Both the position numbers and the translations under genes were made by a program. The notes beneath the pieces are model-generated. The model did not search any database. It was given only the letters and a program-made list of their open reading frames with translations, and was not told where the DNA came from. A DNA stretch of 64,000 nucleotides from NCBI GenBank assembly GCA_022449545.1, contig JAKUPN010000002.1, positions 1 through 64,000 of the forward strand. The letters are read 5' to 3'. Positions within the stretch are counted from its first letter, which is position 1; every line of letters starts with the position of its first letter. The stretch is from Alphaproteobacteria bacterium (GTDB lineage: Bacteria > Pseudomonadota > Alphaproteobacteria > UBA6615). Below, piece after piece: positions 35,650 through 55,185 of this stretch.

Positions 35650-36411
35650 ATGGAAGCGTTAACATCTATTAAAGGCCAAGTGGCTGTTGTCACGGGCGGA
35701 ACGGCCGGCATGGGCGAGTCAACATGCATACGTTTTGGGGCTGAAGGTGCGAAGGTTGCAGTTGTCGGTAGAACTAAGGAGAAGGGCGATGCGGTTGTTA
35801 GAAAAATTGTAGAATCCGGGGGCGAGGCAGTGTTTGTGAAAGCCGAATGTGCTGATGAGACTGAGGTCAAAGCTGCCACTAATAGTATCCTCGAAAAATG
35901 GAAAAAAGTGGATATATTAGTAAATACTGCCGGCGGTTTCATAAATTCGCCGCCTATAGAGGAAGTAACAAATGAAGACTTTCATCACAACTTTGATTGG
36001 AATGTGACGGCCAAGTTTCTCATTACACGTGAGTTAGTACCAATTATGAAAGAGAATAATTATGGCCGGATAGTTAACATCTCTTCTGTAGCTGGTCGAA
36101 CCGCTCGAGAAGGTTCTTCTATTGAGTATTCTACTAATGAGTCGGCGATATTAGGAATGACAAGACGACTTGCTATTGAGCTAGCCCCATTTGGTATTAC
36201 AGTTAATGCCATTGCACCTGGTTTGGTTTTAACGCCTCGTGTTAGACGGCACCCACCAGAAGTCCTTGCTGAGAGAGAAAAATCAATCCCTATTGGCCGT
36301 ATGGGTCAACCTGAAGAATTGGCGCATGCTATTTGGTATTTATGTACCCCTGGGGCAGCTTTCACCACTGGAGCTGTTCTTGATGTTAATGGAGGCAACT
36401 GGACAGGGTAA
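35650..36411 (+). CDS. SDR-family oxidoreductase with Glu in place of catalytic Lys (first of tandem pair)
   Basis: Classical short-chain dehydrogenase fold, 253 residues. The cofactor motif is TGGTAGMGES and the structural motif NTAGG. Asn118 (DWNVT) and Ser145/146 (ISSVAG) of the catalytic tetrad are present, and so is Tyr160. Yet the position four after Tyr is Glu164 (YSTNE) where SDRs have Lys. The next gene has the same change. Loss of Lys normally cripples oxidoreduction, so the protein may be a partner subunit, a lyase or an enzyme with another proton relay. It ends one base into the next ATG (TAATG). Substrate unknown. Confidence 0.88.
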   Translation: MEALTSIKGQVAVVTGGTAGMGESTCIRFGAEGAKVAVVGRTKEKGDAVVRKIVESGGEAVFVKAECADETEVKAATNSILEKWKKVDILVNTAGGFINSPPIEEVTNEDFHHNFDWNVTAKFLITRELVPIMKENNYGRIVNISSVAGRTAREGSSIEYSTNESAILGMTRRLAIELAPFGITVNAIAPGLVLTPRVRRHPPEVLAEREKSIPIGRMGQPEELAHAIWYLCTPGAAFTTGAVLDVNGGNWTG

Positions 36412-37184
36412 TGACTAGATCTTTTGATCATTTAACTTCTATTAGAGGACAGGTGGCTCTGGTAACTGGAGGAACTGCTGGAATTGGTGGGGCTTGTACA
36501 GAAAGGTTTGCACGTGAAGGGGCTGTAGCTATTGCCATTGGTCGGGATCCGGCTAAGGGGGCTCGTTTAGTTAATAGATTGGAAAGTGAGGGCAACGAAG
36601 CCTACTTTTATTCTTGTGACTGTACACAAGAAAAGCAAGTGCTGAACACTAGCTCTCAGATTCTCGAGCGATGGGGTTATGTTGATATATTGTGTAATAT
36701 TGCAGGTGGTTGGATAGAAGCACCTCCAATTGAAGAAGTAACTACTGACGCTCTTCGGCATAGTTTCGATTGGAATGTCACTTCTAAATTCTTGATTACT
36801 AAGGTTTTTATTTCCTCTATGAAGGCCAGGGGTTATGGCCGTATTGTCAACATGTCTTCTACCACAGGAAGGAGAGGACGAGTTGATGCTGCTTTACAAT
36901 ACTCAACTATGGAAGCCGGCGTTCTTGGCTTCACTCGAGCTTTAGCATTACAACTAGCACCTCATGGCATAACAGTAAATGCAATAGCCCCTGGTACGAC
37001 ACGAACTCCTCGAGCTGAAAGGCACAGTGAAGAACGCCTTGCATCAACTGCACGTTCAATTCCTGTTCAAAGACTTGCCACTGTTGAAGAACAGGCACAT
37101 GCCATTTGGTATTTATGTACTCCAGGCGCATCCTATACTACAGGAGCAATTCTTGACGTAAATGGTGGTAGCTGGACGGGATAG
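36411..37184 (+). CDS. SDR-family oxidoreductase with Glu in place of catalytic Lys (second of tandem pair)
   Basis: Tandem paralogue of the preceding SDR, 257 residues. It shares TGGTAGIGGA, NIAGGWIEAPPIEEV, DWNVTSKFLIT and a GAILDVNGGSWTG end. Asn122, Ser149/150 and Tyr164 are kept, while the Lys position is again Glu168 (YSTME). The matched change in both copies argues for a conserved subfamily feature, not a random mutation. Start overlaps the previous stop by one base, so the two are made together and may form a heteromer. It is followed 109 bases later by the hydrolase genes. Confidence 0.88.
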   Translation: MTRSFDHLTSIRGQVALVTGGTAGIGGACTERFAREGAVAIAIGRDPAKGARLVNRLESEGNEAYFYSCDCTQEKQVLNTSSQILERWGYVDILCNIAGGWIEAPPIEEVTTDALRHSFDWNVTSKFLITKVFISSMKARGYGRIVNMSSTTGRRGRVDAALQYSTMEAGVLGFTRALALQLAPHGITVNAIAPGTTRTPRAERHSEERLASTARSIPVQRLATVEEQAHAIWYLCTPGASYTTGAILDVNGGSWTG

Positions 37185-53654: not shown

Positions 53655-54413
53655 ATGAGTGGTCGATTAAAAGGAAAGTCAATAATTGTAACTGGGGGGG
53701 AGAGCGGTATAGGTCGTGCTATCGCTTTGCGGTGTCTAGATGAAGGTGCATCGGTAGTTATATCAGGAATAAGTGAGGCAGATATGGAGAACACATATTC
53801 TGAGGCACTTAAAAAAGGCATAGATGAGCGTGTACAAAAATTGATTACTGATGTCACAGAACCCGATCAAGTACAACAAGCAATCGACTTTACTGTTGAA
53901 AAATTCGGACGATTAGACGCAGCTATTGCAAATGCCGGAGCTTTTTGTTCGAGCACGCCATTCGGGGACTGGAGTGTCGAAGAAATGGAACGTTTAGTGT
54001 CTGTAAATTTAACAGGAGTTTTCTATTTACTTCACGCAGCTGCAAAAGTTTTGGTGTCTCAAGGAGAGGGCGGGAGTTTACTCGCTACCGGTTCATCCAC
54101 GGGCATTCGACCTATACCTAATTTAGTCCCCTATACTTCCACCAAGGGCGGGGTCCATCAAATGATGAGAGGATTAGCTGTAGAGCTAGCCCCACATAAA
54201 ATCAAAGTGAACACAATTGTTCCTGGGATGGCAGAAACGAGACCAGTTATAAGTCAGCAGGGATATGTGGAAGCAGGACTTAAAATGGTCCCAATGAATG
54301 AGATAGTACAACCTGATGAACTTGCAGCCTTTGTAGCCTTATCTCTCAGTGATGAGATTCCGCATATAACTGGTACACTACTTAAGGTAGATGCTGGACG
54401 CACCTCAGCATAG
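53655..54413 (+). CDS. SDR-family oxidoreductase (first of second tandem pair)
   Basis: Classical SDR of 252 residues with an intact active site: TGGESGIGRAIAL (cofactor), IANAGAF, Asn118 (SVNLT), Ser148 region (ATGSSTG) and the full Y160-x3-K164 (YTSTK). It ends KVDAGRTSA. An AGGGAG ribosome site for the next SDR overlaps its stop. Unlike the pair at 35650, both genes here keep the Lys, so they can be working dehydrogenases or reductases on a hydroxyl or keto substrate. Confidence 0.9.
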   Translation: MSGRLKGKSIIVTGGESGIGRAIALRCLDEGASVVISGISEADMENTYSEALKKGIDERVQKLITDVTEPDQVQQAIDFTVEKFGRLDAAIANAGAFCSSTPFGDWSVEEMERLVSVNLTGVFYLLHAAAKVLVSQGEGGSLLATGSSTGIRPIPNLVPYTSTKGGVHQMMRGLAVELAPHKIKVNTIVPGMAETRPVISQQGYVEAGLKMVPMNEIVQPDELAAFVALSLSDEIPHITGTLLKVDAGRTSA

Positions 54414-54423
54414 GGAGATGAAA

Positions 54424-55185
54424 ATGTACAAGTATAACCTTTCTGGAAAAACACTTATTGTAACTGGCGCTGAGACCGGGATAGGTAGGGCGATCGCCCT
54501 CAGAGCCGCGAGAGATGGCGCAAGTGTAACCGCGGCTGGCATAAATGAAGAAGGACTTAGAGAGGTTTTAGATACTGCTGAAAAAAATGGTTTTAAAAAC
54601 AAGTTTTCTACCATGAAGGTTGATATTAGAGATGTTGGGCAGGTCCAAGACATGGTAGATAAAACAACGGGAAAATTTGGCAGGTTAGACGGTCTTGTTG
54701 CCAACGCAGGGGTAATGATTGAACGTAGACCATTTATAGAATCAACTCATCAGGAGTGGCATTCAGTTTTGTCAGTTAATCTCTTAGGGACTTTTCATAC
54801 TTTGCAAGCAGCAACCCGAGTTCTTCGTAAACAAGGTGAAGGAGGATGTTTACTGGTTACCACTTCTTCTAATGCGGTTAGGCCTGGGCCTCAGGCTTCT
54901 TCTTACGTGGCTTCAAAGGGAGCTATACATCACATGGTCCGATCTCTTGCTGTAGAACTGGCTCCCGAAAAGATAAGAGTCAATGCAATCGTTCCAGGAC
55001 TTACGTTGACGCCCGGAACGCAAAATCGTCCCGGCCATATCGAAAGAGGTTTGAAACACATTCCAATGGGTGAGATAGTTATGCCTGAAGAAATAGCTGA
55101 GATAGTGGCCTTTGCCCTCAGTGATGAAGCTCCACACCTTACTGGGACAGAGCTTAAAGTTGATGGAGGACGGACCTCAGGCTAG
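54424..55185 (+). CDS. SDR-family oxidoreductase (second of second tandem pair)
   Basis: Classical SDR of 253 residues from ATG 54424. AGGGAG sits six bases before this ATG; the ATG at 54418 is too close to it, and a longer reading to 54391 overlaps the previous gene. Seen: TGAETGIGRAIALRA, VANAGVM, Y161-x3-K165 (YVASK), and a KVDGGRTSG end close to its neighbour's. The two are a tandem duplication with ten bases between. Co-expression is likely, perhaps as two steps or as a heteromer. Confidence 0.9.
   Translation: MYKYNLSGKTLIVTGAETGIGRAIALRAARDGASVTAAGINEEGLREVLDTAEKNGFKNKFSTMKVDIRDVGQVQDMVDKTTGKFGRLDGLVANAGVMIERRPFIESTHQEWHSVLSVNLLGTFHTLQAATRVLRKQGEGGCLLVTTSSNAVRPGPQASSYVASKGAIHHMVRSLAVELAPEKIRVNAIVPGLTLTPGTQNRPGHIERGLKHIPMGEIVMPEEIAEIVAFALSDEAPHLTGTELKVDGGRTSG

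Follow-up and report, generated by a model that had tools for sequence, protein, structure and literature searches.

The normally essential lysine of the YxxxK motif is the textbook hallmark of the SDRs, one of the largest superfamilies of enzymes, and how such a protein works without it is the question raised by two adjacent genes of the window (the whole 64,000-nucleotide stretch of DNA from a marine alphaproteobacterium analyzed here). Both genes code for SDR proteins in which the position of this lysine is occupied by an oppositely charged residue, glutamate.

Two classical SDRs with glutamate in the YxxxK motif

The gene of SDR A is located on the forward strand at positions 35650-36411 (253 aa) and is followed on the same strand by the gene of SDR B at positions 36411-37184 (257 aa), with the stop codon of the former and the start codon of the latter sharing one base in the sequence TAATG (36409-36413). 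The two proteins are paralogues with 55% identity. Both match the Pfam profiles adh_short_C2 (2e-53 for A and 4e-50 for B) and adh_short, and their assignment to SDRs was also obtained with phmmer against the PDB. The AF2 models have mean pLDDT values of 95.8 for A and 94.9 for B, and the closest solved folds found with Foldseek for the A model are those of FabG and glucose dehydrogenase (TM 0.92-0.93). With the FabG-like classical SDRs (PF13561/PF00106; PDB 4rzh, 4jro, 2uvd and 1gee) the proteins share the fold, the TGxxxGxG and N-x-A-G motifs, the catalytic Asn, Ser and Tyr and the PG motif, but they differ from them in possessing Glu in place of the YxxxK Lys and an additional Lys four residues past the catalytic Asn (Asn+4). 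A and B are classical SDRs by descent and fold which lack the full tetrad.

The retained tetrad members of A, all on the forward strand like those of B, are Asn118 (36001-36003), the catalytic Ser146 (36085-36087) and the catalytic Tyr160 (36127-36129), while the position of the catalytic Lys is occupied by Glu164 (codon GAG, 36139-36141) within the sequence YSTNE. In B, these are Asn122 (36774-36776), Ser150 (36858-36860) and Tyr164 (36900-36902), with Glu168 (codon GAA, 36912-36914) at the Lys position within the sequence YSTME. This arrangement, with Tyr, Ser and Asn kept and Glu found four residues past Tyr in both copies, had been described in the initial annotation and is confirmed here. 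The Asn+4 residue of A is Lys122 (36013-36015), which belongs to the same predicted helix as Asn118 (residues 108-135), and its counterpart in B is Lys126 (36786-36788), both again on the forward strand.

The cofactor motifs are intact, TGxxxGxG being represented by TGGTAGMG/IG and N-x-A-G by NTAG in A and NIAG in B. Asp40 of the more remote sisters is replaced here by Gly40-Arg41, which suggests, judging from the sequence, a preference for NADP(H). Arg197, Arg200 and His201 of the substrate loop are conserved and would suit a carboxylate substrate.

The window carries one more tandem SDR pair (53655-55185, genes at 53655 and 54391), the reading frames of which overlap by 23 bases; its members have the canonical motifs YTSTK and YVASK, in agreement with the earlier remark that this pair keeps YxxxK. 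The genome from which the window originates (G000) harbors about 50 SDR genes in 2.25 Mb, a density which looks high.

Conservation and single origin of the glutamate

Orthologues of A are present in 16 genomes from three genera of one family and, outside the window's genome, are 74-92% identical to A. Orthologues of B were found in three genomes, all from the window's genus, and the 13 genomes belonging to the two other genera possess A without B. All 19 distinct orthologue sequences (16 A and 3 B) have Glu at Tyr+4 and lack the YxxxK Lys of classical SDRs, and all of them (19/19) retain the catalytic Asn, Ser and Tyr. Among the 184 distinct SDRs gathered, the catalytic Lys position is occupied by Lys in 163, Glu in 19, Thr in one (L050) and Arg in one, the 19 Glu cases being exactly the A/B clade.

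The Glu codon varies among the orthologues, being either GAA or GAG, and the pairwise dN/dS values, obtained from pairs with unsaturated dS, are 0.02-0.10 for A and B alike; the substitution is maintained by purifying selection. Both Glu genes recur in G001 and G002, which are assemblies of their own, so they do not result from an assembly error. That the genes are relaxed or decaying copies, or that the Glu is a product of sequencing error or chance, has a negligible probability, as nothing beyond the missing Lys speaks for it, while the low dN/dS, the GAA/GAG turnover at an invariant Glu and the 19 of 19 orthologues from separate assemblies rule out sequencing error, assembly error and pseudogenes. 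The initial annotation was correct in not treating the Glu as a reading error, and of the two outcomes that it regarded as contrary to its proposal, namely homologues with the Lys restored at random and recent pseudogenes, neither was observed.

A tree calculated from 75 SDRs unites all Glu proteins in a single clade with a support of 100/98. When the two trait columns were removed (46 rows), the support was still 98/98 and the single clade was present in 99% of the bootstrap trees, i.e. the YxxxE proteins do constitute a clade of their own, as the initial annotation had proposed to check. The A (16) and B (3) proteins are sister clades within it, so the Lys-to-Glu change predates the A/B split; it happened once, in the ancestor that A and B share, and two independent events are ruled out by the single clade. 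The matched change in the two copies, which had been taken as a sign of selection, is consequently a matter of shared ancestry and not of parallel events: purifying selection does keep the Glu, but the match itself was inherited from a single ancestral event and implies no separate selection. The A/B split appears to have preceded the separation of the three genera, although B is located on a long branch and its placement could be wrong; with a split of this age, B would have been lost in the other two genera.

The closest Lys-type relatives are L047 and L048, which are 59% identical to A, followed by L049 (Lys) and L050 (Thr). The latter protein (G008:C28:266196-266951) has the sequence YSAGT, with Thr for the catalytic Lys, as well as Ser at the position of the tetrad Asn, and represents a second independent Lys loss within the same subfamily. 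Near the gene of L047, a sister of the Lys type, a phage-type integrase gene is located at a distance of about 1.4 kb (L149, G010:C200).

Genomes were also scanned with the DNA pattern for Tyr-x3-Glu-x21-Asn-Ala-x-x-Pro-Gly, which detects only SDRs with that spacing and NA..PG and hence provides a sample rather than a census. The class-wide scan of 385 alphaproteobacterial genomes resulted in six sites in four genomes of the Glu clade plus two chance matches, and the phylum-wide scan of 249 genomes in the window's two sites plus one sequence with an in-frame stop. The three extra matches were rejected as SDRs by eye, those in G209 and G379 looking like enoyl-CoA hydratase and the one in G460 containing the in-frame stop, so within these 385 and 249 genomes the pattern revealed no YxxxE in any SDR outside the Glu clade. 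As a control, the pattern was run with Lys in place of Glu and matched 139 sites in 10 genomes (about 14 per genome), while the reversed control gave none. No published YxxxE SDR was found in the literature searched. The Glu clade represents a real and conserved active-site variant among classical SDRs, one that is apparently undescribed.

Lys122 and a possible rebuilt proton relay

The canonical SDR relay leads from Tyr through the ribose and Lys to a water molecule held by the main-chain carbonyl of Asn (PMC3202535). Since the relay water is held by this carbonyl, a Lys situated one helix turn further on should adjoin it, and Lys122 is, by its position in the sequence, a residue that could pair with Glu164. 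Lys is found at Asn+4 in all 19 Glu-type proteins; L050 (Thr type) and two sisters of the Lys type, L048 and L049, have it as well, and 0 of 119 outgroup SDRs do. Both losses of the catalytic Lys in this group occurred in proteins bearing Lys122, although two independent losses are too few for statistical proof of compensation by Lys122, and a Fisher value, which takes no account of kinship, was set aside.

The reading we prefer, with a probability of somewhat less than 0.4, is that of an active, probably NADP(H)-dependent oxidoreductase combining Tyr160/Ser146 chemistry with a Glu164-Lys122 relay. Tyr160 and Ser146 would act on the carbonyl or alcohol of the substrate, Glu164 would hold the nicotinamide-ribose hydroxyls, and the proton would be carried by Glu164 paired with Lys122, beside the relay water, instead of by the usual Lys. 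More tentative is the full history, that of an active classical SDR which first acquired the Lys at Asn+4, then had its near-invariant YxxxK Lys replaced by Glu, and whose rebuilt, charge-swapped relay became fixed in a lineage of marine Alphaproteobacteria. The replacement arose once, in an ancestor which probably already possessed Lys one helix turn past the catalytic Asn. Two observations count against the preferred reading at this point: Lys122 is not tied to Glu, since it is also found in the Lys-type L048 and L049, and mutants of characterized SDRs with the Lys exchanged for other residues usually lose most of their activity.

It is also conceivable, if unlikely, that catalysis proceeds with no relay residue at all, Tyr160 and Ser146 performing the redox chemistry, Glu164 serving only in ribose binding and the proton coming from the substrate or the barrier being low, a substrate-assisted mechanism such as has been argued for SimC7. 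The Ser, Tyr and cofactor motifs are intact, and active SDRs devoid of the Ser-Tyr-Lys triad do exist, for instance the ketoreductases of the SimC7 type, which have the SDR fold and the residues Ser-Ile-His (PMC5039031). However, SimC7 is of the extended type and has lost Tyr too, having Ile/His for Tyr/Lys, whereas A and B are classical SDRs with Lys replaced by Glu; the SimC7-like I/LxxxH motif is absent from all the Glu-type proteins, each of which has the Tyr. The retention of Tyr, Asn and Ser suggests acid-base catalysis by Tyr, and the fact that this position is strictly Glu, and not just any amino acid, points to a specific role.

The operon setting and possible partners of SDR A

The gene of A closes an operon in the other two genera, where it follows genes coding for thiolase, an OB-fold (ChsH2-like) protein, 3-oxoacid CoA-transferase A and 3-oxoacid CoA-transferase B, in this order. 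This order was seen in all 12 loci examined from these genera, as far as the contigs reached. In the genus with no YHYH insertion, the SDR gene starts about 5-25 bases from the CoA-transferase B reading frame, and in several genomes of the other genus an inserted YHYH gene precedes A. A gene coding for a Cys/Met PLP enzyme is located upstream in the operon loci (L143-L148, L213-L218). Some genomes of one genus possess a second CoA-transferase A gene together with the YHYH protein gene, and some genomes of the other an NtaA/DmoA-type monooxygenase gene downstream.

The composition of the operon suggests a 3-hydroxyacid/3-oxoacid step ahead of CoA transfer and thiolysis. According to the preferred reading, the enzyme would in these genera probably interconvert a 3-hydroxyacid and a 3-oxoacid, the latter then being activated by the 3-oxoacid CoA-transferase and cleaved by the thiolase/OB-fold pair; B, a duplicate seen in the window's genus alone, probably has another substrate. 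The proposed order of SDR, CoA-transferase and thiolase resembles the pathway of 3-hydroxybutyrate dehydrogenase, 3-oxoacid CoA-transferase and thiolase, with the difference that the thiolase of the operon is of the OB-fold-partnered type. An OB-fold type subunit is also known from the thiolase BbsAB, namely BbsA. B scores 138 bits with the PHB_DH profile, far under the cut-off of 307 bits.

SDR folds can host non-redox reactions as well, and Glu164 might be imagined as the general base of, for instance, a dehydration, epimerisation or retro-aldol cleavage, in line with the invariance of the Glu and the confinement of YxxxE to the Glu clade in the genomes sampled. We regard this as quite unlikely, given that the remaining cofactor and redox motifs are all intact and that the place in the operon fits 3-hydroxy/3-oxo redox before CoA transfer and thiolysis.

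The thiolase/CoA-transferase cluster of the window's genus is found on another contig and lacks the SDR, which counts against the preferred reading. The neighbors of the A-B pair in the window include genes coding for esterases, a hydantoinase pair, a TRAP binding protein and molybdenum hydroxylase, and the molybdenum hydroxylase genes are the only neighbors that each of the three genomes of this genus retains close to the pair. The hyuAB, nitronate monooxygenase, esterase and TRAP DctP genes are a weak functional context, since G001 does not have them next to the pair and the other two genera do not have them next to A.

Finally, A and B could be cofactor-binding pseudoenzymes, i.e. structural or regulatory SDRs functioning alone or as heteromer subunits with other SDRs, like BbsC in BbsCD; the partners would be A and B in the window's genus and A and a Lys-type SDR elsewhere. 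The absence of the usual catalytic Lys speaks for this, the one-base overlap of the two genes is compatible with coupled synthesis, and the numerous SDRs of the genome are possible partners. A tandem pair of an inactive and an active SDR is known in BbsCD, the hydroxybenzylsuccinyl-CoA dehydrogenase (7pcs; FEBS J 2021, as cited in PMC10818641), and the bbs pathway, as outlined in the latter source, also includes a thiolase (BbsAB) and a CoA-transferase. As described there, however, BbsCD combines an inactive pseudoenzyme subunit with an active one, whereas A and B share the same change, so neither of them is a Lys-bearing active partner and the pair contains no member with a complete tetrad. 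The adjacent A-B pair occurs only in the window's genus, A being single in the other two. With 13 genomes possessing A without B, an A/B heteromer is no necessity, and an obligate one as a general requirement is ruled out. The active/inactive heteromer which the initial annotation had derived from the matched change thus finds no confirmation. No second SDR was found beside A in the operon loci examined, and Ser, Tyr and Asn, Arg197, Arg200 and His201, and the cofactor motifs, none of which a scaffold would need, are all conserved, which makes a pseudoenzyme the less likely reading.

The initial annotation had named a different chemistry as its other possibility; the operon context of the two other genera suits an ordinary 3-hydroxyacid/3-oxoacid redox step performed with an unusual relay. 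A clade which has exchanged the Lys for an oppositely charged residue without giving up Tyr, Ser or Asn represents a natural experiment on rebuilding the SDR proton relay, with the Lys-type and Thr-type sisters possessing the Asn+4 Lys as ready comparison points. Loss of the motif alone is no ground for calling such genes dead, and how A and B work without the catalytic Lys is a real and testable question.
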